Shown one piece after another: positions 7,313-62,818 of a stretch of DNA of 64,000 nucleotides; position 1 is the stretch's first letter; each line of letters opens with the position of its first letter. The position numbers were made by a program, and so were the translations under genes. The DNA lies in the IMG/VR virus record IMGVR_UViG_3300012000_000012, positions 1 through 64,000 of that record; one strand, given 5' to 3'. The notes under the pieces are model-generated. The model was not told where the DNA came from and did not search any database. It was given only the letters and a program-made list of their open reading frames with translations. Source of the DNA: a virus.

Positions 7313-7433
7313 TGCTAGAAACAGAAGTGCCGTTAGATAGTGATTGTATTTTTTGGTTTTGTATCTCGATCAGCTTTTGAGCTTGATACAATTCCAAATA
7401 TAATTTACCTATAAGTATAAATATATCATCCAT
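7305..7433 (-). CDS. 42-residue tail-module peptide
   Basis: A short open frame begins with ATG at 7433 (MDDIFILIGKLYLELYQ) and stops TAG at 7305-7307, overlapping the next start. It fills the gap between the tail tube and the 344-residue gene. The N-terminal half is an amphipathic hydrophobic helix and the C-terminal half is Gln/Ser/Asn-rich. The only ribosome-site candidate is AAGGA about 14 bases upstream. Function unknown. The tight packing argues that it is real. Confidence 0.5.
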   Translation of the reverse strand: MDDIFILIGKLYLELYQAQKLIEIQNQKIQSLSNGTSVSSND

Positions 7434-7457
7434 CCCTATTTGAATCCTTAGTATTTA

Positions 7458-43422: not shown

Positions 43423-44436
43423 TTATAGAGCGCCAAGTAGCACTCTACGATTATCAAGAACAGCAAAACCTTGTTCTGCCCAACCATAGAAACCAGCTCG
43501 TTTTTGACGATGAAGAGTATCATCTTCAAAAATTTGAACTTCTTGACGAACTGGCATAATGAAGCTGTCTCTCTTGCGAAGATCAAGACCAACAACAACT
43601 TCTAGTTTGCTGCCAGGAAGACTACCACTAAGAGTATTGCTATAGAATAGTTGATACTCTTGACCTTCACCAAGTTCATCAAGATCGTGAAGATTGATGC
43701 CGAATACTCTGTTAAGAGTACCGTCAGCAGCGGTATAAATTTCACGACGAGTCACTTCATCAACTTGATCGATACCCCAGTTGCGGATATCTTCCATAGC
43801 TTCTGGTGAAACATAAAGATCAGTTAACATACCACGATTATTACTGGCAGAGTTACCACCACCATTACGTCTCATGACTGTTTTCATCAAAGAAACCAAT
43901 CTCTTGCTAAATTGACCAGCAGTAGCATCGCTATCGTAAACTACGATATTGCGATCAACACCAGCGGCAAGAACAGTGTGCCAGCCGTCATCATTCATCT
44001 TCTTGACAAATGAACCTTCTAGCACTTCCATGGCACGACCAACAACATCCCAGCGAGCATCACGAGCATACTTTAGTAAGTAGTCGATGCTAGCTCCGAT
44101 GTCATAGGTTGGAACCATGACGTAATCGCCTTCAACATGACGTTCTGGAATATAGCCGTGATTAGGAACAGTATAAGCAACAAAGTCTTTTTCTGTTCCA
44201 GGAGCTAAGAAATCTAGTGGGAATTCAGGAGTAGCACTTTGAGCCAATTGAATGGGTTCAAAAATACCATCAAGAATATCACCACTCAACAAACCTTGAC
44301 GAAGTGGAAGCTCTAGTGCTTTTGCAAATTCTGCATTAGCAGCAAGAGATACCTCTCTATTAGCAGAACCAGATTTTACCAAAAGATCGGTAAGTTCTGG
44401 TGTTGGCTTAAAAGCTTTAGTATTAACTTCTGACAT
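43423..44436 (-). CDS. major capsid protein, HK97 fold
   Basis: 337 residues. The ~60-residue N-terminal region is helical. GLDLRKRDSFIMPVRQE and QKRAGFYGWAEQGFAVLDNR near the C-terminus are typical of HK97-type capsid proteins, and the order protease/scaffold, decoration, capsid is standard. The product has no obvious long delta domain, consistent with a separate scaffold in the upstream gene. The gene ends at a strong terminator. Codon use appears richer in G/C than in the fibres, as is usual for highly expressed capsid genes. Confidence 0.9.
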   Translation of the reverse strand: MSEVNTKAFKPTPELTDLLVKSGSANREVSLAANAEFAKALELPLRQGLLSGDILDGIFEPIQLAQSATPEFPLDFLAPGTEKDFVAYTVPNHGYIPERHVEGDYVMVPTYDIGASIDYLLKYARDARWDVVGRAMEVLEGSFVKKMNDDGWHTVLAAGVDRNIVVYDSDATAGQFSKRLVSLMKTVMRRNGGGNSASNNRGMLTDLYVSPEAMEDIRNWGIDQVDEVTRREIYTAADGTLNRVFGINLHDLDELGEGQEYQLFYSNTLSGSLPGSKLEVVVGLDLRKRDSFIMPVRQEVQIFEDDTLHRQKRAGFYGWAEQGFAVLDNRRVLLGAL

Positions 44437-48696: not shown

Positions 48697-51600
48697 TCAA
48701 TTATTATAAATACCCAAATATATATCATTATCATTAGCGTTGGACGTAAACCATTCTGGACCTTTGTACATTTGACCATTTAATTTTGTAGCATTTTTAG
48801 CGTTTTCTCCTACAACATCATATTCGATAGTTTTATATGATCTAGTCATTTGTCTTGCTAGCATATTAGCAATAAGTAATGCGCTATATCTATCTTTTCT
48901 TAATCTACCTTTTTTACCGCTAGTTAGTTTTACTTCTGGAGTATCCCATCTATCTCTAGCATTGGGGCCCTGACTAGTTTGTGTCATAACAATTGTGGTT
49001 AATTCGTTTTTAAGTTCTTCAATTTCTACAACACATTCGCTAAGATTATCATAAATAGGATTAAGATCTGTTGTTAATATATCCTGTCCCTCTGATGCTA
49101 GTGTTAAACCTAGTGTAAGATTATCAAATCTTGGAAATAGCAATACTTTATCTTCCATATCTTTTCGTAAACCATGATTAGCTTGACTAGTCCAATCTGC
49201 TCTAGCGAATTGTATAAGTTCAAGTATGTGCAATCCTTGCTGATTATCAGTTTCTTTGGATTTGCTGTAGTCTATAGTTGGCCAAATTAATATTTCTCCA
49301 TCATTTAACTTATCAGGATCATGTAAAGCTTCTTCTATAGCTATACCTCCTCCTTGAGCATCTAATCCTATTCTAGCGCATGGAAAAGTTTTCATTAAAT
49401 TTCTAATTTTTCTTGCACAAAAACCATAGAAGTCATGATCTTCTACTAGCCCTGTCTTTTGACGATCTTTAAAATTACTACGATTAGTTGTCCAGCAATA
49501 TACTACTCTATTATGATCATTGTTTAATTCTAAAATAACTATACTAAAATTATCATTTTCTGATGCAGGATCGATGCCATATATATACTGCTTGTGTGAG
49601 GAACCCTTAACTGTTGCGTCAAAAAGTATTGGTCTTCCTTGGGAATCTGTGATATTTTTTTCTGTTGATACAACACAACTTTCTACTAGACTACGCCTAA
49701 AAAATCCTTCACTATCCTCAACAAAACAAGCGGCATATTCCATATTATAGATACCAGTATGAATAGTGGCTTTTGCTCTAGCAACTTGTTTATCATCCAT
49801 AAATCCTTTAGGAATTAATTCATATGGTATTCTTACTATACTATAGTCTTTCCAATTAAAATTTTCTGGAACACTTTCTGGAAATACATCTTTGAGTTTA
49901 TTAATATCTCCTTTACTATTAATAATAGTTTTATATCTATTCCAATATTTAGCAAAATGCTTAAAAGCATAGTCGGCTGTTCCTGCTATTATGGCCTGAT
50001 TGCTCATTTTTGTGTCTAATGCTTCTAATTCATCATTCCATATGCCCATTTCTTGCATCGCTGTTTTTTTAGCTTGTTCTTTTACATTTTGTATTGGACT
50101 AGCGCTCACGGCTGCGAAACCTGAAACAACCGTTTCATAAATATCTGGAGATATTGACGCAAATTCGTCTGCGATAATAATATGTGCTCTTAGACCTCTG
50201 ATTTTACTATTATGAACACATATACCATTAGCATTATATTGATGAGAATTTTCAACTTCTATATCGTATGTGTAATTACGATCATAACTAATATCTGTAA
50301 TATAATCTAATAAAAAACTATTATAATATTTTTCTTGAGATAACCATTTCTGTTTTTTTGATATATATTCTATTAGAGAATGTTGTTTACGTTTTAATCC
50401 AAAGCCAATTTTTTCTGCAAATTTTTTGACGTTATAACCATTAATCAATAACTCATAAATAGTATTCCATTGTTTTTTGCGTTTTCGCGATTTAAGAGTA
50501 GAGACAATACCGTAATGTAATAAAATATAATGAATTTGTTTCATTAATTTTTCTGAAGTATTGGTTAAACTTATTGTTATTCCAATACCTCCTTTGGCCT
50601 TATTCCCTTGAACATGTCCATCTGTATCAAAAATACCTCTTAAACAAGCGCTCATTATTTCTTGAGAACTATGAAGAATAGGTTCTGGTAAATGCTTGTC
50701 TTTAGTATATGTATGATCAATTTGCCACTTGTTCATCCATTTTTTAACATTTTTTATACTATCATGATTATAATGAATACCATCAGAACATTGATAAAAT
50801 TTATATCCTGTGCCTTTTTCTAATGCTATTACTAGTTCTGGATCATTAGATGTATATCTTAATCTATATTTATTGGTCCAACAGCCATCTCCTATCATCA
50901 ATCCTAAAGCATAAGATTCGTCTGTTGTTAGTTCTGTTGTTCCTTCGTGCCATCTTTCTGATACATCTATTAGGATTTTATCATTTATGTTGATAGAATC
51001 TAATCTTTTCCAAATCACATTATTTCCATCAAATACCTTAATTTCATGATTATGTGTCCCCTCTAGAACAAATCCTCTTTTTGTTTTGATTTTAATTGTA
51101 TCTTTTAATCCATTATATCTTTTATGTAAACTTTTTTCAAACTTAATATTGTCCCAAACTTCACAGTTATTAACAGTATCTAGTTCTTCATCGTAATCTA
51201 AATCAAATAATGATCCTAGTGTTGAAAAACAATTACTGAATGTTATCATGGTATCAGAAGTAAGACATCCATCACCCATTGGAATAGCAATAGCCCAGCT
51301 GTCGCCATATCTCATTGTGCATCTATCAACATCTCTTCGCGGGCCGTCGTCATTGCCATTGAATATGCTCCTTAGAATTGGGCTATTTCTCCAAATCGTT
51401 TCCATGTATTCAAAAATCACTTTGCTTTGACGAAATGCTGCACCAACTATAACTATTTTGGTTCCGGGAATAAAGATACATTTTAATGTAGCGTATAGTG
51501 CTAATAAAAAACTTTTACCAAAACCACGACTAGCAACAAACATTGGAAAAGCTCTATTCCAAAATTCTTGTAATATTGCTATCTGTATAGGATGTAGTTC

Positions 51601-51780
51601 AATGTTCATTAGTAGTTTGCATGTTGATCCTAAATAATTGGGATCTCTCATAATTTTTAATAAATGTTTATCTGGATTTTCTATATCTTCTCTGGATCTA
51701 TTAATCATAAGATTACGACTAATAGTTAGTTTAGATAAATCTCCTAGACCTAACCATGCATCATCAAAATTATATGACAT
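48697..51780 (-). CDS. terminase large subunit interrupted by an intein
   Basis: The frame from ATG 51780 (MSYNFDDAWLG, overlapping the previous gene by 11 bases) encodes 1,027 residues, or 674 after removal of the 353-residue intein; an upstream TTG is less likely. Extein motifs: Walker A MFVASRGFGKS (residues 80-90), Walker B IIIADEFAS after the intein, coupling motif AIIAGTADY, and nuclease motifs YGIDPAS, IGLDAQGGG and DRYSALLIA. It packages DNA into the capsid with the portal and cuts concatemers. The intein lies between Walker A and Walker B, so the enzyme should be inactive until splicing. Confidence 0.92.
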   Translation of the reverse strand: MSYNFDDAWLGLGDLSKLTISRNLMINRSREDIENPDKHLLKIMRDPNYLGSTCKLLMNIELHPIQIAILQEFWNRAFPMFVASRGFGKSFLLALYATLKCIFIPGTKIVIVGAAFRQSKVIFEYMETIWRNSPILRSIFNGNDDGPRRDVDRCTMRYGDSWAIAIPMGDGCLTSDTMITFSNCFSTLGSLFDLDYDEELDTVNNCEVWDNIKFEKSLHKRYNGLKDTIKIKTKRGFVLEGTHNHEIKVFDGNNVIWKRLDSININDKILIDVSERWHEGTTELTTDESYALGLMIGDGCWTNKYRLRYTSNDPELVIALEKGTGYKFYQCSDGIHYNHDSIKNVKKWMNKWQIDHTYTKDKHLPEPILHSSQEIMSACLRGIFDTDGHVQGNKAKGGIGITISLTNTSEKLMKQIHYILLHYGIVSTLKSRKRKKQWNTIYELLINGYNVKKFAEKIGFGLKRKQHSLIEYISKKQKWLSQEKYYNSFLLDYITDISYDRNYTYDIEVENSHQYNANGICVHNSKIRGLRAHIIIADEFASISPDIYETVVSGFAAVSASPIQNVKEQAKKTAMQEMGIWNDELEALDTKMSNQAIIAGTADYAFKHFAKYWNRYKTIINSKGDINKLKDVFPESVPENFNWKDYSIVRIPYELIPKGFMDDKQVARAKATIHTGIYNMEYAACFVEDSEGFFRRSLVESCVVSTEKNITDSQGRPILFDATVKGSSHKQYIYGIDPASENDNFSIVILELNNDHNRVVYCWTTNRSNFKDRQKTGLVEDHDFYGFCARKIRNLMKTFPCARIGLDAQGGGIAIEEALHDPDKLNDGEILIWPTIDYSKSKETDNQQGLHILELIQFARADWTSQANHGLRKDMEDKVLLFPRFDNLTLGLTLASEGQDILTTDLNPIYDNLSECVVEIEELKNELTTIVMTQTSQGPNARDRWDTPEVKLTSGKKGRLRKDRYSALLIANMLARQMTRSYKTIEYDVVGENAKNATKLNGQMYKGPEWFTSNANDNDIYLGIYNN
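50209..51267 (-). mobile_element. LAGLIDADG homing intein in the terminase
   Basis: 353 residues. It begins with C (CLTSDTMITF) at terminase residue 172 and ends GICVHN, followed by extein Ser. Block B is GTHNHEI. Two LAGLIDADG motifs are ALGLMIGDG (about residues 120-128) and LRGIFDTDG (209-217). Block F is YTYDIEVEN. All splicing residues appear intact: Cys1, the block B His, penultimate His, terminal Asn and Ser+1. It should splice itself out and could home into intein-free terminase alleles. The insertion site is GDG/SKIRG. Confidence 0.95.
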
Positions 51781-52333
51781 GTTTTTTAGCTTTACTAATA
51801 GCTTGATTAACAACCATACGAACTACTGTTGGAATAAATGGAATATTTCGTTCTTTACATTCTTGTTTAAGCCATTCTATAATTGTTTCTATATTATCTT
51901 CGCACCATTGTACTCCTTTAGTATTCATTTCATTAGCATGTTTCATGCATTTGCATGTTGGTGTTATAGATATGCCAACGCTTTTAATGATTTGTGATAG
52001 TATTGTACCAGGACCATTTGGAAATTCTTCTAACGTAGGAGGAAACAAAGATCTTATTTTAGCTGCCGGATCTGATCCTAGTTTTTCTTTAACTAGTTTT
52101 TCTCTAATGGAACTAGAATAATCACCCAAATTATCATATTCTTGATCTGACTCCACCAAAGGAAGCACATAGGGTAATGAGTCTATTCTTGCTACTAATT
52201 TTTTTTGATCCGGACTATCAATATAAGTTATTTTTAAATCTTGTAAAGTTATAGATTCTGGCTGAGTAATTTTTTTAGTTGATGGATCAGTATATGGCGG
52301 AGGAGTAATTGTTATGGGAAAATCAAGTTTCAT
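51770..52333 (-). CDS. cysteine-cluster protein, paralogue of the 24397-24966 gene
   Basis: 187 residues. The C-terminal half has FPNGPGTILSQIIKSVGI, TCKCMKHANEMNTKGVQWC and IIEWLKQE, matching the other copy block by block. Both share an N-terminal beta half beginning with ITxxPPP. It lies immediately upstream of TerL and overlaps its start by 11 bases, and follows the ERCC4 nuclease with an 11-base overlap. Probably metal-binding. Similar bacterial proteins, from memory, sit near glycosyltransferases. Role in the phage unknown. Confidence 0.7.
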   Translation of the reverse strand: MKLDFPITITPPPYTDPSTKKITQPESITLQDLKITYIDSPDQKKLVARIDSLPYVLPLVESDQEYDNLGDYSSSIREKLVKEKLGSDPAAKIRSLFPPTLEEFPNGPGTILSQIIKSVGISITPTCKCMKHANEMNTKGVQWCEDNIETIIEWLKQECKERNIPFIPTVVRMVVNQAISKAKKHVI

Positions 52334-54101: not shown

Positions 54102-54912
54102 ATTTTTCCACGCTTTCTGGTGTTAAAAGGGGGCGGTCTATATTATTATTAGAGTATGAGTGAAGTTGCTCAAGTTTATTTTTTTGATTAAGAGTGGCTA
54201 ATTTCAATATTTCCATTTCACGACCTTGTTTTTCTCTTAATTCTTCGTCTTCCAACATTCGTATTAATCCTACCCAAGAGCTTTTGCCATCTTCTATTCG
54301 TTTGATTCTTTGCTCCCTAGTAGCTTTAAGATCTTTACTAATTTTTTGTTGTTCGTTAAGAAGCTTGGTATATTCATTAGTATAATTAGCGATACTGTTA
54401 CGGGCGAATGATAGTTGCGTTTCCAGGTTGGCCAATTTCGGAATATCTCTTTGATCTTCACTTTTAGCATACTCTTTATCAACCTCATTTTGTATTTTTT
54501 CAGTGTCGGCTATGTGTCTTTTACGCTCTTTCATACTGCGATTAATAAGAATATCAATAGTAATAAATTGTTTAATTTGTAATTCTTCAGCAGGAAGAAC
54601 ATCTTCTCTAAATTGTTTAATTAAGCTTACCCATGTATTCTCAAAGTATTCTAATTCTCCTGATGTGTTGTCAAATTGTTTAGTAATTTCGGGCCAAAAC
54701 GGCTTAGTATGAAGTTTAAGTTTTAAATATTCAAGATCTGCTATAGATTCTTGATCAGTAAATAAAAAGTTTTGTTCGGCATATTTTTGTATCGGGGCTA
54801 TGTTTCTGTTAAGATTATTAGCAATATCGGCCACGGATAAAGAATGAATATTATCTTTAATATATTTTTCTTCGTCTAAGCTCAGTTGTCCTCTTTTTTT
54901 AGGAATAGTCAT
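54091..54912 (-). CDS. terminase small subunit candidate
   Basis: 273 residues. The N-terminal ~50 residues form a helix-turn-helix-like segment (LSLDEEKYIKDN, then VADIANNLNRN), and residues ~130-215 form a long coiled coil. A DNA-binding head plus coiled coil is the usual TerS layout, and it precedes gmd, nucleases and TerL. The N-terminal HTH resembles that of the divergently encoded protein at 55734-55982. No direct family match can be claimed; a TerS role is inference. Confidence 0.6.
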   Translation of the reverse strand: MTIPKKRGQLSLDEEKYIKDNIHSLSVADIANNLNRNIAPIQKYAEQNFLFTDQESIADLEYLKLKLHTKPFWPEITKQFDNTSGELEYFENTWVSLIKQFREDVLPAEELQIKQFITIDILINRSMKERKRHIADTEKIQNEVDKEYAKSEDQRDIPKLANLETQLSFARNSIANYTNEYTKLLNEQQKISKDLKATREQRIKRIEDGKSSWVGLIRMLEDEELREKQGREMEILKLATLNQKNKLEQLHSYSNNNIDRPLLTPESVEKYDK

Positions 54913-55541
54913 TGGTAATTAGCTATAATATTTAGTATAGTTTCTTTAAGTTTGTTTAATTCTGCACTAGGTATTTTTTGTCCGTGTTTTAATTTGATAT
55001 AAACGGCCCTGTCTGATGGTAACATGTGTTTGTCTATTAGTTCTAATAGTTCCTTATTTGCAATATCACCACAAATACTAGATTCATTACTAAAAATATT
55101 CATATCATCTATATTTTGTGGAGTCATTAAATTTTTCTTATTATTATTTCTTTTTTCCCATAATTTGTATAGTTCGCAATCGCTCTTGTTTGAAAATGCT
55201 TTACATCCATTGTTTGAGCAGGAAAGGTAAGGATCGTTTTCGGGACATTTAAAACAAGGTTTATCGGGCCTTTGATAGTGATCTCTTTTATAATTGAAAA
55301 GTCTATTTCTAACGTGGGTCCATAGGAAGTTTTCTAGGGGTCTTTTGTTATCGTATTTATCTAAGCATTCTAAGCCAAAAATAATAGCTTGTTGTTTCAT
55401 ATCTTCAAAACTATGATATCCAAATTTAAATTTATGTGCTAATTTTTTAGCAACATTATCTATGGCTTTTAAAAAGTCTTCTTCTTGAACATTATTCGGT
55501 AAACAAGGCTTTTGGGTCTTTTTCTTCTTCTTTTTTTTCAT
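54909..55541 (-). CDS. gp55-like late sigma factor candidate
   Basis: 210 residues. A Lys-rich start is followed by a sigma-70 region 2-like stretch at about residues 25-85 (FGYHSFEDMKQQAIIFGLE, then NFLWTHVRNRLFNYKRD), which binds the -10 element. A cysteine insert follows (CFKCPENDPYLSCSNNGC) that could hold zinc. It would recruit RNA polymerase to late promoters, as T4 gp55 does. Region 4 is not recognised. It heads the minus-strand structural block and overlaps the TerS candidate by 4 bases. Confidence 0.75.
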   Translation of the reverse strand: MKKKKKKKTQKPCLPNNVQEEDFLKAIDNVAKKLAHKFKFGYHSFEDMKQQAIIFGLECLDKYDNKRPLENFLWTHVRNRLFNYKRDHYQRPDKPCFKCPENDPYLSCSNNGCKAFSNKSDCELYKLWEKRNNNKKNLMTPQNIDDMNIFSNESSICGDIANKELLELIDKHMLPSDRAVYIKLKHGQKIPSAELNKLKETILNIIANYQ

Positions 55542-56130: not shown

Positions 56131-56164
56131 TAAAATGAAAAAACCCCCCTACTGAGCGGGTGAC

Positions 56165-56206
56165 GCAAAATGCTGTGCAAAATGCTACAGTGTGATGCAA
56201 AATGCT
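56165..56206 (+). repeat. iteron cluster 1 (GCAAAATGCT x3)
   Basis: GCAAAATGCT starts at 56165, 56177 and 56197 (spacings of 12 and 20 bases). The block continues into CCCCCGTCTCAAATTGAGAA and then an AT-rich promoter region. The second cluster at 57095-57136 has the same order. Candidate iterons of a replication origin or operator sites; the sequence does not distinguish these. Confidence 0.65.
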
Positions 56207-56284
56207 ACGGTGATCGATACCCCCGTCTCAAATTGAGAATGCTGTAACCCTATATTTTTCAAGGGTTTATGAAAAATCCTATTT

Positions 56285-56990: not shown

Positions 56991-57080
56991 GACGTAAACC
57001 GTTGTGGTATAAGGACTTACGGCGAAATCGGGCCGCCATTTTTGACGTAACTCCTTATATATCAAGCACTTACATCGACC
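56991..57080. repeat. early intergenic element, copy A
   Basis: One of seven copies. Order: TAAACCGTT, AAGGACTTAC, GC-rich core GCGAAATCGGGCCGCC, GACGTAACTCCTT, AAGCACTTAC. It lies after the 56835-56984 gene. This copy has the least conserved right half and is followed by iteron cluster 2 instead of a family I promoter. Confidence 0.75.
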
Positions 57081-57094
57081 CCAAAGGTGGTGTA

Positions 57095-57136
57095 GCAAAA
57101 TGCTGTAGCAAAATGCAACACCTGTAGCAAAATGCT
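57095..57136 (+). repeat. iteron cluster 2 (GCAAAATGCT x3)
   Basis: GCAAAATGCT or GCAAAATGCA at 57095, 57108 and 57127 (spacings 13 and 19). Followed by CCCCCGTCTCAAAATGAGAA and then a GTGCATATATAT element, as in cluster 1. A half-copy of the intergenic element (TAAGGACTTAGG) sits at 57190-57202. Confidence 0.65.
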
Positions 57137-57209
57137 TCACCTTGGCACACCCCCGTCTCAAAATGAGAAAGTTGTAAAGTGTTGTGGCGTAAGGACTTAG
57201 GAAGAAAAA

Positions 57210-57250
57210 AATATTTTTTGGTGAATGGCATGGGAAGTGCATATATATAG
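57210..57250 (+). promoter_or_regulatory. early promoter element, second copy
   Basis: TTTTTTGGTGAATGGCATGG, then GAAGTGCATATATAT. TTGGTG and TATATA are separated by 18 bases and could be -35 and -10. The counterpart is at 56285-56320. A polypurine leader follows to the start at 57288. Confidence 0.5.
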
Positions 57251-57287
57251 GGTAGTAAAGAAAGAAAGAAAGAAAGAGAGAAAGAGA

Positions 57288-57506
57288 ATGAGAATGAATC
57301 GTTACAGTTCAGCCCTTCGGTCCTATCGTGATGAGCGGTCTAACCGCCATCGTCATGTTCGTACTAACTTGTGGATAGTTTACCAGAATGGCAAGCGTAT
57401 CGGTAAGGTAGGTGGAATTAGTGAGGGTGAAGCCCTCTCAAAGATTCCGCAGTCCTACAAGGATAACGGTCCTATCGAATTGGAAAGGGTTGTGATCGAA
57501 GAGTGA
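57288..57506 (+). CDS. early small protein, unknown
   Basis: 72 residues from ATG 57288 (MRMNRYSSALRSYRDERS), very basic (many Arg) in its first half, with a beta C-terminal half (NLWIVYQNGKRIGKVGG). Compatible with a nucleic-acid-binding protein; no known family seen. An earlier in-frame start (57225) lies inside the promoter and is rejected. Leader is a long GAAA/GAGA purine run. Confidence 0.6.
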   Translation: MRMNRYSSALRSYRDERSNRHRHVRTNLWIVYQNGKRIGKVGGISEGEALSKIPQSYKDNGPIELERVVIEE

Positions 57507-57525
57507 TCCTTCCCTATAAGGGGGG

Positions 57526-57553
57526 TTGCGGCGGCGAATTTTTTTGGTAGACT
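57526..57553 (+). promoter_or_regulatory. early promoter, family II
   Basis: TTGCGG, 16-bp spacer ending TTTTTTTGG, TAGACT, then GGAAAGAAAGAGAGAAAAAAATG. It follows a GC-hairpin (CCCT-ATAA-GGGG) just after the stop codon of the upstream gene. Confidence 0.7.
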
Positions 57554-57577
57554 TGAAGGAAAGAAAGAGAGAAAAAA

Positions 57578-57775
57578 ATGAAGATTGGCGATATCGTCCA
57601 TGTTGTCTATGTAACAGGTGAAGTGTTCGAAGGTCCAGTTGAGAGAATTCGGAATATTCCCGGAAAGGGTATTCTGCTTCTCATCAACGACGATACTGTA
57701 GGGTATCGTTCGGTCTATGCTAACAAGTGTGGTCATATAGTCTACCGATCACCCGTAGCAGTCACACCCGATTGA
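57578..57775 (+). CDS. early small protein, near-identical copy 1
   Basis: 65 residues (MKIGDIVHVVYVTGEVFEG). Beta-rich, SH3- or KOW-like pattern (GDIVHVVY, GKGILLLIN, GYRSVYANKCG). It is almost the same as the product of 58839-59036, differing at about eight positions. The promoter and leader are also similar, so a tandem duplication of the whole cassette is likely. Function unknown. Confidence 0.7.
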   Translation: MKIGDIVHVVYVTGEVFEGPVERIRNIPGKGILLLINDDTVGYRSVYANKCGHIVYRSPVAVTPD

Positions 57776-57779
57776 GGGG

Positions 57780-57807
57780 TTGCGGCAGCGGAAAAGTTTG
57801 GTAGAAT
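57780..57807 (+). promoter_or_regulatory. early promoter, family II
   Basis: TTGCGG, 16-bp spacer ending AAAAGTTTGG, TAGAAT. The -35 begins 5 bases after the stop codon of the upstream gene. Leader AAGAAAGAGAGAAAGAG. Confidence 0.75.
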
Positions 57808-57835
57808 CAGCACACAAGAAAGAGAGAAAGAGAAA

Positions 57836-58153
57836 ATGGAAAAGTTCCCAATTGTTGAACAGTACAAGCGTACAGTGCGTGGTATCTTCTACGGCATTGC
57901 GATCCCTTGCGACAAGCGTACCGCTGATGGTGGTAGTATTCGAAGTGAAAAGGTATTGAAGTTCAATCGTTCAGCCCTACGAAAGATCGGTAAGAGTAAG
58001 GTCGAAAAGGTCGATCCTCGCGTTGTGGGTACTGTAGATCATATGCGTTTCCCGGTTGGACAGCCCGGTTCCCCCGAAAGGGTGGTTGCTCTTGCGGAAC
58101 AGTATGCTAGACTTAGTGAAGATGAAATGAGTCCCTTTATTGGAGATGAGTGA
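57836..58153 (+). CDS. early protein, unknown
   Basis: 105 residues (MEKFPIVEQYKRTVRGIFYG). Mixed composition with a basic middle and an acidic end. No family recognised. It stops 4 bases before the start of the following gene, as the 56671-56832 gene does. Promoter at 57780-57807. Confidence 0.65.
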   Translation: MEKFPIVEQYKRTVRGIFYGIAIPCDKRTADGGSIRSEKVLKFNRSALRKIGKSKVEKVDPRVVGTVDHMRFPVGQPGSPERVVALAEQYARLSEDEMSPFIGDE

Positions 58154-58157
58154 ACAC

Positions 58158-58346
58158 ATGACGATTCAACTTGCGGTGGAAAAAACGTTGCTTCGTTTGA
58201 TTGCAATTCATGGACATTCGGCCATGTACTTGTGCGACTTGGGTGGTGATGTTAGTTTGTACACTGTGGGTGGCGTTCACTATGCTATCCGTGATGATGG
58301 TACGGCCCGCGCTATCCACCCTGCCGAGGTATTCCCCACCCTGTAG
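58158..58346 (+). CDS. early small protein, paralogue of the 56835-56984 gene
   Basis: 62 residues from ATG 58158 (MTIQLAVEKTLLRLIAIHG), chosen because it matches the paralogue start and follows the previous stop; an earlier in-frame ATG at 58140 overlaps the upstream gene. C-terminus adds about 13 residues (ARAIHPAEVFPTL) missing in the paralogue. Function unknown. Confidence 0.65.
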   Translation: MTIQLAVEKTLLRLIAIHGHSAMYLCDLGGDVSLYTVGGVHYAIRDDGTARAIHPAEVFPTL

Positions 58347-58356
58347 AGGGATGGGC

Positions 58357-58447
58357 TCGACGTAAAGTCTTGAACCGTAAGGACTTACGGCGAAATCGGG
58401 CCGCCCGCCGTGACGCAAGTGCTTATGTGGTAACGACTTACAACAAA
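58357..58447. repeat. early intergenic element, copy B
   Basis: Order: TAAAGTCTTG, TAAGGACTTACGG, GCGAAATCGGGCCGCCCG core, GACGCAAGTGCTT, TAACGACTTACAACAAA. It is in the gap between genes 58346 and 58635 (288 bases). The AT-rich DNA that follows (58448-58575) has no feature I can support. Confidence 0.8.
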
Positions 58448-58575
58448 TGCTAATAGCAAACTCTATGCCATGATTTTTGGTATGACAATTGCTCTAGCAT
58501 ATGGTGTGCCAATATGGAAGAAAATTATGAAAAGTTTTGTCAAAATCTCTTGACACAAAAATTTCCAGATTTTTC

Positions 58576-58603
58576 TTGCAACCTAAAGAATCCATGGTAT
58601 AAT
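58576..58603 (+). promoter_or_regulatory. early promoter
   Basis: TTGCAA, 16-bp spacer, TATAAT, then AGAGAAAGAAAGAGAG. An additional TTGACA at 58550-58555 is not at a useful distance from a -10. It drives the 58635 gene. Confidence 0.8.
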
Positions 58604-58634
58604 GTCGATATAAGAGAAAGAAAGAGAGAAAAGA

Positions 58635-58778
58635 ATGAGCAAGATTGAAGTTTACTATTCCGATTGCTGTGGTGTTGAGATTGTTGGTGATATCGCTGGT
58701 CTCGAATTGTGTCCCCGATGCTGGGAACACTGCGACTGCGTTATTGAGGAAATCGACGATCCGACCTGCCCATCCTAA
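58635..58778 (+). CDS. early zinc-ribbon-like small protein
   Basis: 47 residues (MSKIEVYYSDCCGVEIVGD). Seven cysteines, including a CC pair at residues 11-12, CPRCWEHCDC at about 26-35 and one more at the end, could bind one zinc ion in a rubredoxin/zinc-ribbon manner. Such small proteins often modulate host polymerases or nucleases. Function here is inference. Confidence 0.65.
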   Translation: MSKIEVYYSDCCGVEIVGDIAGLELCPRCWEHCDCVIEEIDDPTCPS

Positions 58779-58784
58779 TAGGGG

Positions 58785-58812
58785 TTGAATCGACGGAAAA
58801 GTTTGGTAGGAT
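58785..58812 (+). promoter_or_regulatory. early promoter, family II
   Basis: TTGAAT, 16-bp spacer ending AAAAGTTTGG, TAGGAT. It follows the TAA stop by 6 bases. Nearly the same spacer as at 57786-57801. Confidence 0.75.
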
Positions 58813-58838
58813 TGTAGAAAACAAAGGGAGAAAGAAAA

Positions 58839-59036
58839 ATGAAGATTGGTGATATCGTTCATGTGGTATATGTGACCGGCGAAGTTTTCGAGGGTCCGGT
58901 TGAGAGTATCCGTAACATTCCCGGAAAGGGTATCTTGCTACTTATTAATGATTATAATGTGGGATATCGTTCACTCTATGCTAATAAGTGTGGTCATATA
59001 GTATATCGGTCACCCGTGGCAACTGCCACCAATTGA
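58839..59036 (+). CDS. early small protein, near-identical copy 2
   Basis: 65 residues (MKIGDIVHVVYVTGEVFEG), the second copy of the 57578-57775 product. Differences are clustered at the DYN region and C-terminus. Same length and same promoter type. Probably the outcome of recombination between the repeated promoter and leader sequences. Confidence 0.7.
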   Translation: MKIGDIVHVVYVTGEVFEGPVESIRNIPGKGILLLINDYNVGYRSLYANKCGHIVYRSPVATATN

Positions 59037-59102
59037 GGGGGGTGACAAGGCATCCACACTGTCTCACCTAACCCTACGGGTTTGCATAGTGGTGCCATAG
59101 TC

Positions 59103-59192
59103 AGCGTAAACTCTTACCGTATAAGGACTTACAGCGAAATCGGGCCGCCCGCCGCGACGTAAGTGCTTATGTATCAACCACTTAGAACAAAA
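59103..59192. repeat. early intergenic element, copy C
   Basis: Order: TAAACTCTTACCG, TAAGGACTTACAG, GCGAAATCGGGCCGCCCG core, GACGTAAGTGCTT, CAACCACTTAGAACAAA. It is in the 287-base gap 59037-59323 and precedes the family I promoter at 59269-59296. The rest of the gap is AT-rich with nothing else recognisable. Confidence 0.8.
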
Positions 59193-59268
59193 GACTAAGC
59201 ATACGGTGTGCCACAAAAATTTTTTCGTTTGGCACAAGATTATTTTTAGATTTTCTAAGATTTTCTGC

Positions 59269-59296
59269 TTGACAGTGCCGATCATTAGTGTAGAAT
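59269..59296 (+). promoter_or_regulatory. early promoter, family I
   Basis: TTGACA, 16-bp spacer GTGCCGATCATTAGTG, TAGAAT. CCGAT just after the -35 is shared with most family I promoters. Drives the gene at 59324. Confidence 0.85.
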
Positions 59297-59323
59297 CCAC
59301 GCATCACCCCAACGGAGGTTCTC

Positions 59324-59515
59324 ATGTACGATTTCGACAATGTCAACCGGATTCTTGCGGAAATGGCCGACGCTGGTATCGTAGAGCCGATGGTCGAGCC
59401 GATTGATGAGAACGACTGCCATCCGCTCGACTGGGCGGAAGTTGTAGGTTGTGCTGACGATATTTTTGACGAAGTGTATCTTGACGAAGCGGGCGATCCG
59501 TGGTATCTTGTTTGA
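59324..59515 (+). CDS. early small acidic protein
   Basis: 63 residues (MYDFDNVNRILAEMADAG) with ribosome site GGAGG 8 bases upstream. Strongly acidic (EPIDENDCHPLD, ADDIFDEVYLDE). Followed 10 bases later by the acidic 59526-59798 gene. Function unknown. Confidence 0.65.
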   Translation: MYDFDNVNRILAEMADAGIVEPMVEPIDENDCHPLDWAEVVGCADDIFDEVYLDEAGDPWYLV

Positions 59516-59525
59516 AAAGGAGAAA

Positions 59526-59798
59526 ATGATGAGTCACCCCGATCCCATGTTCGATTACGATAACTCTGAGGATGATGACATGAACTACGATGATCACGAC
59601 GATTTCTACCAAGAGGTCGAAGATTACAACGATTATTACATCGAGGAAAATAGCGTGGACGATGACGACTACGATGATAGCATGGATGGTGACCACGAAA
59701 GCGGTCTAGCATCGGCTGGTTGGGGTTTAGATGAAAATTATGGATCGTATCACGATGATATCGACGCTTACCACGATTACTACGGAGAGGATTTCTGA
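59526..59798 (+). CDS. extremely acidic protein without Lys or Arg
   Basis: 90 residues from ATG 59526 (MMSHPDPMFDYDNSEDD), with a good ribosome site (AAAAGGAGAAA). It has 34 Asp/Glu residues, about 12 Tyr and no Lys or Arg. Runs such as DDDMNYDDHDDFYQEVED dominate. This composition resembles DNA-mimic inhibitors such as T7 Ocr or other phage anti-restriction proteins, but no fold match can be claimed. It is an early gene, in keeping with counter-defence. Alternatively it may be a disordered acidic tail protein. Confidence 0.65.
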   Translation: MMSHPDPMFDYDNSEDDDMNYDDHDDFYQEVEDYNDYYIEENSVDDDDYDDSMDGDHESGLASAGWGLDENYGSYHDDIDAYHDYYGEDF

Positions 59799-59800
59799 AC

Positions 59801-60019
59801 ATGATCAATTACATGTGCGATAACATCACAGTTGACAATGATTCGGAAGATGGTATTTTTCTTGGAAACAAGATGGTTGTAATTTCTGTTCCGGAGTGTG
59901 GTGGTACTGATCCTTTGGACAGGTATGACCACCTTGTGTCAATATCCGGAGCGTTGGAAAATGCTTTGGACTGTGGTATTCGCTCGTTCAGTTATTCTAA
60001 GGTAGAAAATGTTGCCTAA
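59801..60019 (+). CDS. early small protein, unknown
   Basis: 72 residues (MINYMCDNITVDNDSEDG). Mixed beta and helix. Starts 2 bases after the acidic protein's stop and overlaps the AT-rich 60009 gene by 11 bases. No motif. Confidence 0.6.
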   Translation: MINYMCDNITVDNDSEDGIFLGNKMVVISVPECGGTDPLDRYDHLVSISGALENALDCGIRSFSYSKVENVA

Positions 60020-60128
60020 TACATATATTTATGTATATGATGTGGTTCAAGATCGTAACCGTTGGGTAAATACAGCTTATGTAAATAAATATCCAAAGTT
60101 ATATAAATTGCTTATAATGGCCAAATAA
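60009..60128 (+). CDS. 39-residue peptide, tentative
   Basis: Frame from ATG 60009 (MLPNTYIYVYDVVQDRN) to TAA 60126-60128, basic and aromatic C-terminus. It overlaps the previous gene by 11 bases and lacks a clear ribosome site, so it is tentative. Confidence 0.35.
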   Translation: MLPNTYIYVYDVVQDRNRWVNTAYVNKYPKLYKLLIMAK

Positions 60129-60164
60129 AATCTTAATATAATTGTGCAGAACAAGGAGGTTCTC

Positions 60165-60236
60165 ATGGATGGGGCAATTGTGCTTATTGTGGTGGTTATG
60201 ATTATTGGTCTAATTGTGGAGATATTGTGGAAATGA
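60165..60236 (+). CDS. 23-residue membrane peptide
   Basis: MDGAIVLIVVVMIIGLIVE with a charged end, almost entirely one transmembrane helix. A textbook ribosome site AAGGAGG lies 7 bases upstream, which argues strongly that this tiny frame is translated. It overlaps the next frame by 4 bases (ATGA). Function unknown. Confidence 0.6.
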   Translation: MDGAIVLIVVVMIIGLIVEILWK

Positions 60237-60307
60237 TTTCGCCATTCCATTTTTTTATTATTCTTACTACTGTTATGCTTATATATGCGGCAGTATCTAA
60301 TGATTAG
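60233..60307 (+). CDS. 24-residue membrane peptide
   Basis: MISPFHFFIILTTVMLIYA, a second hydrophobic peptide translationally coupled by ATGA to the 23-residue peptide. The pair resembles small membrane proteins such as KdpF-like, holin-like or toxin-like peptides; none is identified. Followed by intergenic element D. Confidence 0.55.
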   Translation: MISPFHFFIILTTVMLIYAAVSND

Positions 60308-60394
60308 TTGTAAACCCTTGTGATTTAAGGACTTAGATCAAAACGGCGCGGCCCGGCTCGACGTAAGTGCTTGATTCTCAACAACTTGCATCAA
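60308..60394. repeat. early intergenic element, copy D
   Basis: Order: TAAACCCTTG, TAAGGACTTAGA, GGCGCGGCCCGG core, CGACGTAAGTGCTTG, CAACAACTTG, then TCAAAAAAATTTTT. It is followed by the family I promoter at 60419-60446. Confidence 0.8.
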
Positions 60395-60418
60395 AAAAAT
60401 TTTTCTAAAGATTACCTC

Positions 60419-60446
60419 TTGCGTTGGCCGATAAATATGGTATGAT
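60419..60446 (+). promoter_or_regulatory. early promoter, family I
   Basis: TTGCGT, 16-bp spacer TGGCCGATAAATATGG, TATGAT. CCGAT in the spacer is conserved. Because it overlaps an upstream in-frame ATG (60424), the start of the next gene is 60469. Confidence 0.75.
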
Positions 60447-60468
60447 TGAGACTCACCAAGGGAGAAAG

Positions 60469-60780
60469 ATGATGACTCATTCTGAAGCGGTTAGGATGGT
60501 TCGTGGCAAGCGGAATGCGGAGCGTCGCAAGGTTGGCAACAATACCTACGCGGAGATTCTGAGCGATGGTAGCGTTGGAATCATGCTGCATAGTACCTAT
60601 GTGGTCAAGATTCATGAGGATGGTACTTATACCCTGAATAGTGGGGGTTGGCAAACCTTGACCACTAAGGATCGTATCAATCAGTATAGCCCGCGTTATG
60701 TTTTCCAGAAGAACTATGAATGGTTCGTGAAAATCAACGACAAGCCGTATCCTTTTCTGGACGGGATGGTGGTGTCATGA
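60469..60780 (+). CDS. conserved phage protein (TLNSGGWxTxTTKxRIN family)
   Basis: 103 residues from ATG 60469 (MMTHSEAVRMVRGKRNAER) with ribosome site GGGAG. Contains RRKVGNNTYAEILSDG, TLNSGGWQTLTTKDRIN and YSPRYVFQKN, which I recognise from small proteins of many phages that have no known function. Probably an alpha/beta fold. Overlaps the next gene by 4 bases (ATGA). Confidence 0.8.
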   Translation: MMTHSEAVRMVRGKRNAERRKVGNNTYAEILSDGSVGIMLHSTYVVKIHEDGTYTLNSGGWQTLTTKDRINQYSPRYVFQKNYEWFVKINDKPYPFLDGMVVS

Positions 60781-60974
60781 AGAATATTAACCAGATTTTA
60801 AAAGGATTGGGAAAACTTGGTTTTAGGGTAGAATTTTGTGATGGTAGTTTGGTCAAGTTATATCCGGCAGATTCTAGCCAGCCTTTTTATTCGTTACATG
60901 TGGGCGAACGTGCGATTCACCCGCTAAAGAGGTTTGCCAAGAAAAACTGGAATATCGAACTTGACAAGGTGTGA
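60777..60974 (+). CDS. HicA-like fold protein lacking the catalytic His
   Basis: 65 residues (MKNINQILKGLGKLGFRVE). The pattern helix, GFxV, strand DGSLVKLYPAD, PFYSLHVGERAIHPLKRFA, helix fits the small dsRBD-like fold of HicA mRNA interferase toxins. In HicA the segment reads GSHxx; here it is GSLVK, so the catalytic His is missing. An inactive or diverged member is likely. Start is the ATG of the ATGA overlap with the previous stop. Confidence 0.55.
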   Translation: MKNINQILKGLGKLGFRVEFCDGSLVKLYPADSSQPFYSLHVGERAIHPLKRFAKKNWNIELDKV

Positions 60975-60988
60975 GATGATGGTATACT
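60961..60988 (+). promoter_or_regulatory. early promoter at the gene end
   Basis: TTGACA, 16-bp spacer AGGTGTGAGATGATGG, TATACT; it overlaps the last codons of the preceding gene and drives 61022. Confidence 0.75.
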
Positions 60989-61021
60989 TGTGGCATAAGG
61001 TAACTAACTGAAAGGAAAAAG

Positions 61022-61429
61022 ATGAACGATTTTATTGCTGCTGCTCTGGTTTCTACGATTTGTCTGGTTGGTCTGGTTTGCTTTGTGTTGTTTCATATCT
61101 ATCGTGGATTGAATGATTCGCTGATTACTGCTAGGATCGGTGGTGTTTATAACTTTGAGTATGAACAGCCGGTTACTGGTGATCCTGAGCGTTTTATGGC
61201 TAAGGTTCTTAGTGTGCATCGTCTTAGCAATGATAGCATCGCTAGGTTGAATGCTACTAGTCGTTATCGAAGACACGATGGACAGTTTGTGCGTACTCAT
61301 CATCTGGTAACTGCTCAAACGCCGGATGGTAAGATTCGCAATTTCTACGCCGAACGTACTCGCAATGTGCGTCGTCCCCTCTTGGGTAGTACGCTCTTCA
61401 AGAGTGGTTTGGCCGCTATGATGTTCTGA
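61022..61429 (+). CDS. small membrane-anchored protein
   Basis: 135 residues with one N-terminal transmembrane helix (about residues 5-27, FIAAALVSTICLVGLVCF) and a basic soluble domain (RYRRHDGQFVRTHHLV, FYAERTRNVRR). Ribosome site AAAGGAAAAAG. Topology N-out or N-in not clear. Recognised only as a common phage membrane-protein type. Followed by intergenic element E. Confidence 0.65.
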   Translation: MNDFIAAALVSTICLVGLVCFVLFHIYRGLNDSLITARIGGVYNFEYEQPVTGDPERFMAKVLSVHRLSNDSIARLNATSRYRRHDGQFVRTHHLVTAQTPDGKIRNFYAERTRNVRRPLLGSTLFKSGLAAMMF

Positions 61430-61440
61430 ATATCGCCCAA

Positions 61441-61527
61441 TCGCTCTAAGTTCTTGCTAGTAAAGGACTTAGGGCGAGATGGGCGGGCAGCTTTTGACGT
61501 AAGTGCTTGCTCATCAACAACTTAGGA
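61441..61527. repeat. early intergenic element, copy E
   Basis: Order: CTAAGTTCTTG, AAAGGACTTAGGG, CGAGATGGGCGGGCAGC core, GACGTAAGTGCTTG, CAACAACTTAGG. The inner core differs most from the other copies here. Followed by the family I promoter at 61546-61573. Confidence 0.8.
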
Positions 61528-61545
61528 TTTTCTAAAGAAAACCTC

Positions 61546-61573
61546 TTGACAAGCCGATACTATCTAGTAGAAT
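61546..61573 (+). promoter_or_regulatory. early promoter, family I
   Basis: TTGACA, 16-bp spacer AGCCGATACTATCTAG, TAGAAT. Drives the 61594 gene. Confidence 0.85.
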
Positions 61574-61593
61574 GACTCCGACGGGAGAACATT

Positions 61594-61773
61594 ATGAATT
61601 ACACTTGGGCCGTTTGGCAAAATAATCGTCTGGTGGGTTATGTCGAGTCGTCTAGTGAATGGAACGCTATTAGATTAGCCCATAGCAAGTATGGCTCCTG
61701 TTTATATGTGGAACGATGTTTGATGGGTGTGGGTCCAAAAACAAAGGAAAAAGAATGCCAAATTGGTGCATGA
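61594..61773 (+). CDS. early small protein, unknown
   Basis: 59 residues (MNYTWAVWQNNRLVGYVES). A beta-like start with Trp/Asn, and a Lys-rich end. Ribosome site ACGGGAG. Its last 19 bases overlap the start of the next gene (ATG 61755) in another frame. Confidence 0.6.
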   Translation: MNYTWAVWQNNRLVGYVESSSEWNAIRLAHSKYGSCLYVERCLMGVGPKTKEKECQIGA

Positions 61774-62234
61774 ACAAGTTGACAGTTTCTCATGCCAACC
61801 CTGACATGGTTGACCGATTTGAGAATGCCTATAATCTTGGTAAGGCTTGTAATGAGTTTTTACCATTACCAGAGGGTGAGGATTGGTATAACTGGCAGAT
61901 AAATAACTGGGGAACCAAGTGGGATATTGGTGCCGATATTGGTACAGAGAAGGAAGAGCGTTATGGTTTGAAGGCCACAAGAGTTGATAATGAGGTTAGT
62001 TGCTCTTTTGACTCTGCTTGGAGTCCTCCTGTGGGTTTGTATGAAAAACTGGTAGACTTGGGATATGATGTAAAGGCAACGTATTGGGAACCCGGAATGG
62101 CTTTCTGTGGTATTTGGGATAATGGTGTTGATCACTATGTAGATTATCAGAGCAAGGATATGATTCCTGTAGCATTATGGAATGAGTATGATATGCAGGA
62201 GTTTTTCGAAGATGATGAGGAAGTAAACGCCTAA
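61755..62234 (+). CDS. DUF1281 / Api92-like protein
   Basis: 159 residues from ATG 61755 (MPNWCMNKLTVSH). The MPNWCxNxLxV start and the later segments ENAYNLGKACNEFLPLP, NWGTKWD and SFDSAWSPPVGLYEKLVDL are typical of this ferredoxin-like family, which is common on phages and plasmids and has no known catalytic activity. An earlier in-frame start (61716) is rejected because it loses the family start. Followed by intergenic element F. Confidence 0.8.
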   Translation: MPNWCMNKLTVSHANPDMVDRFENAYNLGKACNEFLPLPEGEDWYNWQINNWGTKWDIGADIGTEKEERYGLKATRVDNEVSCSFDSAWSPPVGLYEKLVDLGYDVKATYWEPGMAFCGIWDNGVDHYVDYQSKDMIPVALWNEYDMQEFFEDDEEVNA

Positions 62235-62240
62235 AACGCC

Positions 62241-62332
62241 ACTCGTTCTAAGTTCTTTGCCCAAAGGGACTTAGGGCGAGATTGGCCGGCCCGCATCGTC
62301 GTAAGTCCTTGTCTCGTAACGCTTTACAACAA
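62241..62332. repeat. early intergenic element, copy F
   Basis: Order: CTAAGTTCTTTG, AAAGGGACTTAGGG, CGAGATTGGCCGGCCCGC core, CGTCGTAAGTCCTTG, TAACGCTTTACAACAAA. The best symmetric copy, with TAAGTCCTT exactly inverted relative to AAGG(G)ACTTA. Followed by the promoter at 62357. Confidence 0.85.
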
Positions 62333-62356
62333 AATATTTTTTCTGGATTTTTTCTC

Positions 62357-62384
62357 TTGACAGGCCGATAATAGACTGTAGAAT
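62357..62384 (+). promoter_or_regulatory. early promoter, family I
   Basis: TTGACA, 16-bp spacer GGCCGATAATAGACTG, TAGAAT. It drives the non-coding transcript at 62385-62690. Confidence 0.85.
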
Positions 62385-62690
62385 GATTGAGTAAGACAAA
62401 ACAAACTTTCGTGGGTCAAGCAGGACTAGATTAGATAACCTATTGGGGACGTCTGTGCTGGTTATGCACTGGGAACCGATACTAATCTATGGGGGATCGC
62501 ATCCTCACCACGACCAATATAACCAGTAACCGTTCCCAAGAGCCAGACTAACCGGAACATGATGCTAGCAGTTCATCCGGTTATAGGGAGGATTTCCGTG
62601 GACGGTTTCCATCCGATCCTGACAAGGGGTAATCGTGTGGATTATAGAATCGGGGCGTAAAAGATTCCGCTGGTACAATATATAAGCCCT
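62385..62690 (+). ncRNA. candidate structured non-coding RNA
   Basis: About 300 bases with no convincing gene follow the promoter at 62357-62384 and end in element G. Complementary segments: AGATTAG (62428-62434) with CTAATCT (62482-62488), GTGC with GCAC around 62455-62469, GGGGAT with ATCCTC (62492-62506), TAACCGGA (62549-62556) with TCCGGTTA (62576-62583), and AGGAT with ATCCT (62589-62620). The order of stems suggests a folded RNA. No known RNA family is recognised. A 33-codon frame (62559-62660) overlaps it but has no ribosome site. Confidence 0.55.
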
Positions 62691-62768
62691 TGCTACTAAA
62701 CAACTTAGAGCAAAACGGGCCGGCCCGCATCGACGCAAGTGCTTGATCCGTAATGGCTTACAGCAAAA
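62682..62768. repeat. early intergenic element, copy G
   Basis: Order: TAAGCCCTTG, AACAACTTAGAG, AACGGGCCGGCCCGC core, GACGCAAGTGCTTG, TAATGGCTTACAGCAAAA, then TTTTTTTT. It follows the ncRNA candidate and precedes the promoter at 62790. Confidence 0.8.
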
Positions 62769-62789: not shown

Positions 62790-62818
62790 TTGACAGTGAC
62801 GATAATAGATAATAGAAT
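62790..62818 (+). promoter_or_regulatory. early promoter, family I
   Basis: TTGACA, 17-bp spacer starting GTGACGATAATAGATAA, TAGAAT. CGAT is conserved at the same place as in the other copies. Drives the 62837 operon. Confidence 0.85.

Follow-up and report, generated by a model that had tools for sequence, protein, structure and literature searches.

The DNA considered here, referred to as the window, consists of bases 1–64,000 of the 66,117-bp virus record IMGVR_UViG_3300012000_000012 (the parent record). Its genes lie mostly on the minus strand up to ca 55.5 kb, and behind them an array of small operons begins on the plus strand, in which an element of 86 bp is repeated. Each element is composed of two 37-bp palindromes with a G+C core between them. 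We consider it rather probable that the element is a doubled operator, that is, a predicted binding site of a probably host-encoded regulator, placed before the operons of one array, which we infer to be early. The features of the array are the following, with profile or promoter scores in parentheses:

56241–56273, plus strand: degenerate lone palindrome (15.1)
56991–57076, plus strand: element A, two palindromes 53 bp apart, with only a weak promoter candidate (9.0)
57171–57203, plus strand: lone palindrome of the left type (28.6)
58359–58444, plus strand: element B, with a weak promoter candidate (9.0)
59103–59188, plus strand: element C
59269–59297, plus strand: promoter of C, TTGACA at 59269, ca 80 bp past the element (11.5)
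60307–60392, plus strand: element D, with a weak promoter candidate (9.0)
61443–61528, plus strand: element E
61546–61573, plus strand: promoter of E, TTGACA at 61546 and TAGAAT at 61568, 17 bp past the element (11.5)
62245–62330, plus strand: element F
62357–62384, plus strand: promoter of F, TTGACA at 62357 and TAGAAT at 62379, 26 bp past the element, preceding a non-coding cassette (11.5)
62679–62764, plus strand: element G
62790–62818, plus strand: promoter of G, TTGACA at 62790 and TAGAAT at 62813, 25 bp past the element (12.0)

An eighth complete copy, H, is located at 64755, outside the window and within the parent record. Between element A and the left-type lone palindrome, at 57089–57134, there are also short repeats, TGTAGCAAAATGC, and comparable ones are seen near 56159–56208.

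The palindrome has the consensus TTGACGTAAGTCCTT-N7-AAGGACTTACGTCAA. An oriented consensus of 242 elements gives four half-sites of ca 16 bp each, TTTGACGTAAGTCCTTR, with a tendency of the left outer half-site towards TAAACCCTTG and an A/T-rich stretch downstream of the element. The core comprises 8 bp, each position being G or C in 86–98% of 252 non-redundant elements. The stop codon of the upstream gene is found at a median distance of 4 nt from the element start (n=164 of 198).

The 37-bp profile gives a mean score of 32.8 for the palindromes on which it was trained, compared to 11.9, 6.6 and 3.6 for the best matches in a shuffled 230-kb genome. Taken alone, TAAGTNCTTG with at most one mismatch occurs 35 times in the window, a modest excess over the shuffle mean of 22 and the largest shuffle value of 33. 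The significance rests on the geometry of the two palindromes.

A preliminary description of the same DNA had listed seven copies with four half-sites around a GC-rich core, most of them followed by a promoter. All seven copies were indeed found within a few bases of the positions listed, and the half-sites form two inverted repeats, with a distance of exactly 53 bp between their starts in each of the eight copies of the record. The core is G+C-rich as described, but its letters vary and the sequence given for it, GGGCCGGCCCG, is just one form. Promoters with a score of at least 11 follow C, E, F, G and H, while only the weak candidates listed above follow A, B and D. The copies do sit at cassette boundaries, where the description had placed them.

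Promoters, helical phase and pairing

A set of 209 elements comes from the window record, with 8, and from 12 further records of 187–244 kb, with 15–24 each; 208 of them have the spacing of 53 bp and one has 54 bp. The better promoter lies on the same side, the majority side, in 201 of the 209, and the eight others score 9.0–9.5. Among 373 elements, a promoter with a score of at least 10 is present on exactly one side in 270 cases, on both sides in 5 and on neither in 98, compared to 10/373 for shuffled single sides. In one of the large records, G003, 26 of the 67 strict promoters are inside 161.0–183.5 kb, that is, ca one tenth of the genome.

The distances from the element to the −35 box have peaks at 16, 26–27, 37 and 47 bp. 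Because orthologous operons retain their spacing (26–28 bp in 12/12 for the operon of gene family 14), each combination of first-gene cluster and spacing mode was counted once, which gives 94 clusters and 159 modes, a usable first gene being available for 307 of 381 elements. A mode was considered to be in phase when it falls within 2.1 bp of a 10.5-bp period, with the phase fixed by the main peak. At distances of 10–60 bp, 66 of 99 modes were found to be in phase, to be compared with 40% expected (p=7.6e-8). The result persists when the main peak is left out (38/59, p=1.3e-4) and for single-member clusters (32/45), and a scan of all phases without the main peak gives the best count at the same phase. 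A corresponding phase is absent from the distances between the upstream stop codon and the element (Rayleigh z 2.0, n=61).

Pairing between the arms was examined for 252 non-redundant elements out of 354 oriented ones with 53-bp spacing and a strong promoter, the expectation being calculated from independent columns. For the outer arms, the observed and expected Watson–Crick fractions are 0.565 and 0.579 for the whole palindrome, 0.595 and 0.620 for the right palindrome, and 0.591 and 0.577 for the left one, where the excess comes mainly from one pair (0.53 vs 0.41). In the outer arms, G-U mismatches stand at 7.1% and A-C at 10.1%, the reverse of the pattern of an RNA. As the outer arms are thus without compensated pairing, hairpins of RNA or of single-stranded DNA are unlikely. 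The core behaves in a different way: its outer three pairs exceed the expectation (0.85/0.77, 0.67/0.57 and 0.60/0.55), the centre is below it (0.35/0.51), and G-U mismatches (8.4%) are more frequent than A-C (6.6%). The predicted RNA folds of the seven copies in the window differ in shape, with z values against shuffled sequence of −3.7 and −5.7, far below the shuffled energy, for two of them and −1.0 to −1.8 for the other five.

Occurrence in phages and bacteria

A scan of viral contigs with the palindrome matched at least 120 stretches. In 201 scanned loci, many of which were obtained using the same palindrome pattern, 1212 matches with at most 6 mismatches were found (both strands counted), compared to 1 in shuffled sequence. 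The spacing of the match pairs has its peak at 53 bp (300), followed by 52 bp (26) and 50 bp (22). In total, all loci contain 860 elements, of which 525 are unique by context, namely 482 at 53 bp, 23 at 52, 18 at 50 and 2 at 54. Some loci keep to a single variant, such as 50 bp in L075 (8/8) and 52 bp in L064 and L026 (4/4 each), and other loci are mixed. Of the 120 scan loci, 93 carry one or more of the 60 largest array gene families; the other 27 carry none, and among these, elements are nevertheless present in 13, with the palindromes of the remaining 14 being single or differently spaced.

There are about 17 elements per phage, in one co-directional array and at the heads of small operons. 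The window record and G003 were scanned whole, the other records over 26–40 kb around the element cluster, located from the loci and from the listed matches of a pattern search, and the counts per record are thus lower bounds; in G008 the array runs to the edge of the region. All 17 elements of G003 lie within 161–181 kb of its 230,691 bp, and in G005 the elements are divided between the two record ends. The large phages that carry the element are known only from metagenomes.

In a collection of 84,980 species genomes, the exact pattern matched 14 contigs: three phage contigs in bins of metagenome-assembled genomes (MAGs), seven contigs of Planctomycetota, two of Spirochaetota, one of Variovorax, and one of Sphingomonadaceae without a profile match. 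With two mismatches allowed, 294 Planctomycetota genomes yielded 37 matches in 23 genomes, and the reversed control 7 matches. The MAG bins had pointed to hosts among the Alpha- and Gammaproteobacteria. However, in the two proteobacterial bins with phage contigs all motif matches among those listed are on the phage contigs, so this assignment is taken as unreliable.

A model for the bacterial palindromes was built from sequence only, using 48 palindromes (40 bacterial and 8 from phages), with one training genome in each of the tested sets. Its E-values are rough and unmatched for base composition (G110, for example, has 52 match rows with a best E of 0.11). A best E of at most 0.01 is reached in 18 of 99 Planctomycetota genomes (17/98 without the training genome) and in 2 of 60 Pseudomonadota genomes (1/59), a best E of at most 1 in 77/99 and 14/60, respectively, and at least 10 match rows (both strands counted) are seen in 20/99 and 0/60.

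The best bacterial sites are intergenic in 47 of 69 cases (29 loci and 40 further places), as judged with a simple open reading frame (ORF) caller and no random-position baseline, and the flanking genes are divergent in 25, tandem in 18 and convergent in 4. Strong promoters are found within 60 bp of 17 bacterial sites, vs 4 in shuffled sequence. The phage profile places a site 70–373 bp before the predicted start of dnaN in 10 of 22 genomes, which had been chosen beforehand for other palindrome matches; one is a Treponema, and G139 has three sites. At 24 dnaN loci, 12 of the 17 sites with a score of at least 4 are within 400 bp upstream. When the sequences were read by eye, sites upstream of the same kind of gene in more than one genome were seen for HU-type genes (three genomes, 163–442 bp) and lysyl-tRNA synthetase (two), and also for a conserved pair of transketolase-type and secreted-protein genes (two). 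ClpB-, Tat- and xylose-isomerase-type neighbours recur as well, but the site is not upstream of each. A comparison of the proteins near the bacterial palindromes with the phage proteins gave a few weak matches and no shared family pointing to the binder.

Some of the bacterial palindromes are located at tRNA genes, with the tRNA 3' end at most 6 nt away in 6 of 51 distinct loci and 23 nt away in one. A match to the tyrosine recombinase family PF00589 is found within 1 kb at 5 of 35 palindrome places (8 genomes). In one genome, an intact tRNA-Pro gene with a palindrome is accompanied by the 3' half of a second tRNA-Pro gene, also with a palindrome, and we read the two as the probable ends of integrated elements. 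The block common to this one pair of ends starts in the anticodon region, which gives the palindrome the appearance of an accessory site. The phages resemble such attachment sites in having the palindrome that stands 1–6 nt behind some Planctomycetota tRNA genes, several of them near PF00589 genes, but differ in that they have no such recombinase above the cut-off. An integrase gene on the phage contig L085 runs with its 3' end into the palindrome.

Seven Planctomycetota loci have related genes of tyrosine recombinases, or their remnants, by the palindrome, namely L319 (2–1543), L320 (149–1528), L321, L324, L326, L342 and L345, and most of these genes or remnants are also beside a tRNA 3' end. 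In another Planctomycetota locus, L348, an IS200-type (Y1) transposase gene (6680–7668) adjoins a pair of palindromes 60 bp apart. A relation to repetitive extragenic palindromic sequences (REPs) and their associated transposases (RAYTs), which this locus brings to mind, was considered and rejected: REPs are not typically placed between divergent genes, unlike 25 of the 47 intergenic bacterial sites.

Neighbouring genes of the window record

The minus-strand block contains the gene of the large terminase subunit (48697–51813, minus strand), identified by PHROGs and carrying an intein-type insert with LAGLIDADG_3 above the cut-off and Intein_splicing just below it. The same block holds a gene for the portal, the G003 relative of which has a match to a portal family in PHROGs, and a gene for a 337-residue protein (43423–44436), the presumed major capsid protein, relatives of which are encoded on at least 599 stretches. 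The latter has no Pfam match and no relative in 50,697 annotated phage records, its G003 relative has no PHROG match, and the G003 terminase has only 41 distant matches in the annotated phage records, which means that these phages have no close named relative there. A gene near the start of the array (54909–55541, minus strand) has a weak match to Sigma-70 region 2, below the cut-off, and a comparable one adjoins a lone palindrome in L119 (738–1337).

The cassette between elements F and G is filled by a candidate for a structured non-coding RNA (62387–62682, plus strand). Similarity to it was detected in 32 loci, some overlapping and many short, L255 being identical over 296 nt, and in 11 sequences 15 of 43 predicted pairs are changed on both sides, in contrast to the result for the outer arms of the elements. 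A comparison with Rfam gave no family at the gathering score and one 14-bit chance match at E of at most 5. Past element H and its promoter there are a tRNA-like sequence and a CxxC-rich ORF that by eye resembles an HNH-type endonuclease (L009 10895–11600, ca 64894–65599 of the parent record). ARAGORN finds a tRNA-Leu in L255 (1846–1922), at the corresponding place if L255 and the window record are collinear, while for the window record itself a tRNA search reported nothing.

Proposed function of the doubled palindrome

The following mechanism can be proposed on the basis of these results. The element would act as double-stranded DNA, just behind one operon and upstream of the sigma70-type promoter of the next one. 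With the two palindromes five helical turns apart around the core, a sequence-specific regulator would bind both of them on one face of the helix, and where the promoter is near and on the matching face, it could touch RNA polymerase. Bacteria would use the palindrome singly, and the phages would double it before the operons of one array. The idea in the preliminary description that the element might bind a regulator is supported by the rigid spacing, the uncompensated outer arms, the phase with the near −35 boxes and the intergenic bacterial sites. The upstream position together with the phase suggests that the regulator activates transcription. As the same palindrome is found in regions of gene control in Planctomycetota, the regulator is probably encoded by the host, and we infer that the host itself belongs to this phylum. 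A host regulator would also explain why a 37-bp site is common to unrelated phages, integrative elements and chromosomes.

It is important to note that a number of observations weigh against the doubled operator or against activation through it. Near-consensus promoters seem to need no activator, 98 of the 373 elements lack a strong promoter within 150 bp, A, B and D having weak ones, and an element is present within 160 bp of 8 of the 24 strict plus-strand promoters in the G003 array and absent from the other 16. The phase is at the level of chance beyond 60 bp (24 of the 60 modes there), nine modes at 30–31 bp are out of phase, the spacing differences within one first-gene family are in phase in 8 of 17 cases, which is not significant, and the bacterial sites do not show the phase of the phages (6/13). 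The core may be palindromic for a reason of its own. On the bacterial side, the seed sites of the model had been located using the phage pattern, its matches at E of at most 1 may partly reflect base composition, the intergenic count has the limits given above, and the rRNA upstream regions of planctomycetes have weak candidates and no convincing site. No binding protein was found in the analysis.

Of the known systems, the element appears to work most like upstream activator sites. Class I activator sites and the Fis sites of rRNA promoters are dyads that precede an A/T-rich stretch and a consensus promoter and are in helical phase with it, and here, too, an upstream dyad on a fixed side is found with a consensus promoter, an A/T-rich stretch and a helical phase with the −35 box, the latter within 60 bp only. 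Compared to both kinds of site, however, the palindrome is longer and more specific, and it is paired in arrays. The promoter–stem-loops (PeSLs) of T4-like phages, which are terminator-like stem-loops, share with it the repetition between small gene cassettes together with a sigma70-type early promoter. Such a promoter is present downstream of the element (270/373), but a conserved stem-loop in the transcript is not, as both the outer arms and the differing folds indicate, and the conservation of gene order is hardly lower across elements. Integron attC sites also have four half-sites, a palindromic whole site and a cassette array in one direction; in contrast, the cassettes here have their own promoters, there is no tyrosine recombinase above the cut-off, and there is no constraint of folded arms, the pairing having been absent from the outer arms after orientation and removal of redundancy, on which ground the hairpin or attC reading was rejected. 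The stoperators of L5-type mycobacteriophages are, in the passages of PMC9283540 concerned with them, 13-bp asymmetric sites bound by a monomer of the phage repressor, with a proposed halt of elongation. They are similar in that many copies of one protein-binding sequence occur in short intergenic spaces and in one orientation to transcription (PMC9283540), but as characterised in those passages they differ from the paired 37-bp palindromes, which have a symmetric consensus and a rigid spacing of 53 bp, are upstream of promoters and are common to bacterial chromosomes. The layout recalls stoperators and PeSLs, but for each of the four kinds, namely PeSLs, attC sites, terminators and stoperators, the element lacked features that were tested. 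A literature search gave no description of the element, including the string AAGTCCTTA, among the matches listed.

We have also considered other explanations, of which two concern the regulator itself. The binder could be encoded by the phage, as a private activator or repressor of the array, with sites also on satellites or mobile elements that sense the phage. The 53-bp paired form has so far been seen in phages, the locus-wide spacing variants fit a co-evolution with a phage protein, and the palindrome is present on integrative elements at tRNA ends; the satellite PLE reportedly uses a protein of its helper phage, PexA, for its excision, and satellites exploiting a helper-phage protein were counted for this possibility. 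We nevertheless find it unlikely, as the palindrome is also present in unrelated phages without the array gene families and the chromosomal sites in Planctomycetota adjoin housekeeping genes. Just as unlikely in our judgement is that the elements are operators of a repressor, where a protein complex between the two palindromes would silence the operons at some stage. Near-consensus promoters would be on by default and paired sites suit a cooperative complex, but the sites are upstream of the promoter and not over it.

The other two explanations, termination and cassette exchange, take up ideas of the preliminary description, and both appear less probable. A terminator, or a protein roadblock at the ends of operons, would agree with the short distance to the upstream stop codon (median 4 nt, n=164) and with the bacterial copies that abut tRNA 3' ends (6/51 loci, at most 6 nt). 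However, there is neither a compensated stem nor a T-run directly behind the element, the first positions past it being A-rich and then A/T-mixed, the near downstream promoters are in helical phase with it, and convergent genes flank only 4 of the 47 intergenic bacterial sites. We therefore regard this role as improbable. The remaining option, which we give the lowest probability of all, is a recombination site of the PeSL or integron kind for the swapping of small gene cassettes. In a comparison of 104 gene families across the arrays, the following gene is retained in 432 of 1383 cases (0.312) across an element and in 898 of 2583 (0.348) inside a cassette, and this likeness in gene order argues against exchange sites. 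Where a gene has an element behind it in one genome, its counterpart in the other has one as well in 1016 of 1385 cases; families 6 (13/13) and 12 (12/12) are last before an element, and families 13, 14 and 16 (12/12 each) and 22 (11/11) first after one. A PF00589 tyrosine recombinase, the one recombinase family searched for, was not found above the cut-off in the 13 phage records, the window record being a fragment: 12 of them have no match at E of at most 10, and one ORF of G006 has 24.2 bits, below the cut-off. The variable letters of the spacer and the uncompensated outer arms also speak against such a site. On the other hand, the palindrome is present at attachment sites of integrative elements, and 372 of 1528 ends of DNA similarity are within elements, which make up 10.3% of the length, although these ends are interdependent and local alignments continue through the conserved element. 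Occasional homologous exchange in the elements is thus possible, and to this extent the proposed exchange of small genes retains some ground, most of the results being against it.

Returning to the doubled operator, a wider interpretation is conceivable, which we put forward tentatively and hold to be somewhat less probable than not. The palindrome would be an unusually long operator, with sites before dnaN, HU-type and lysyl-tRNA synthetase genes among others, through which a global regulator as yet undescribed acts in Planctomycetota, and jumbo phages would recruit this regulator by the five-turn doubling before most operons of the early array. Elements that integrate at tRNA genes would carry the palindrome at their attachment sites, perhaps sensing the state of the host or the entry of a phage. 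As to regulators of this phylum, the portion of PMC3108266 dealing with LexA reports that in Planctomycetes this protein fails to recognise the motif of E. coli.

With these results, a repeat that was spotted by eye becomes a defined regulatory element of a jumbo phage group that is widespread in metagenomes, and it is linked to a candidate operator in Planctomycetota, a phylum on whose gene regulation little is known. Synthetic DNA with the consensus could serve as bait for the binding protein. Regulatory sites of this kind could also serve for host assignment and, if the interpretation is true, the regulatory code would name the host of a jumbo phage group common in metagenomes.

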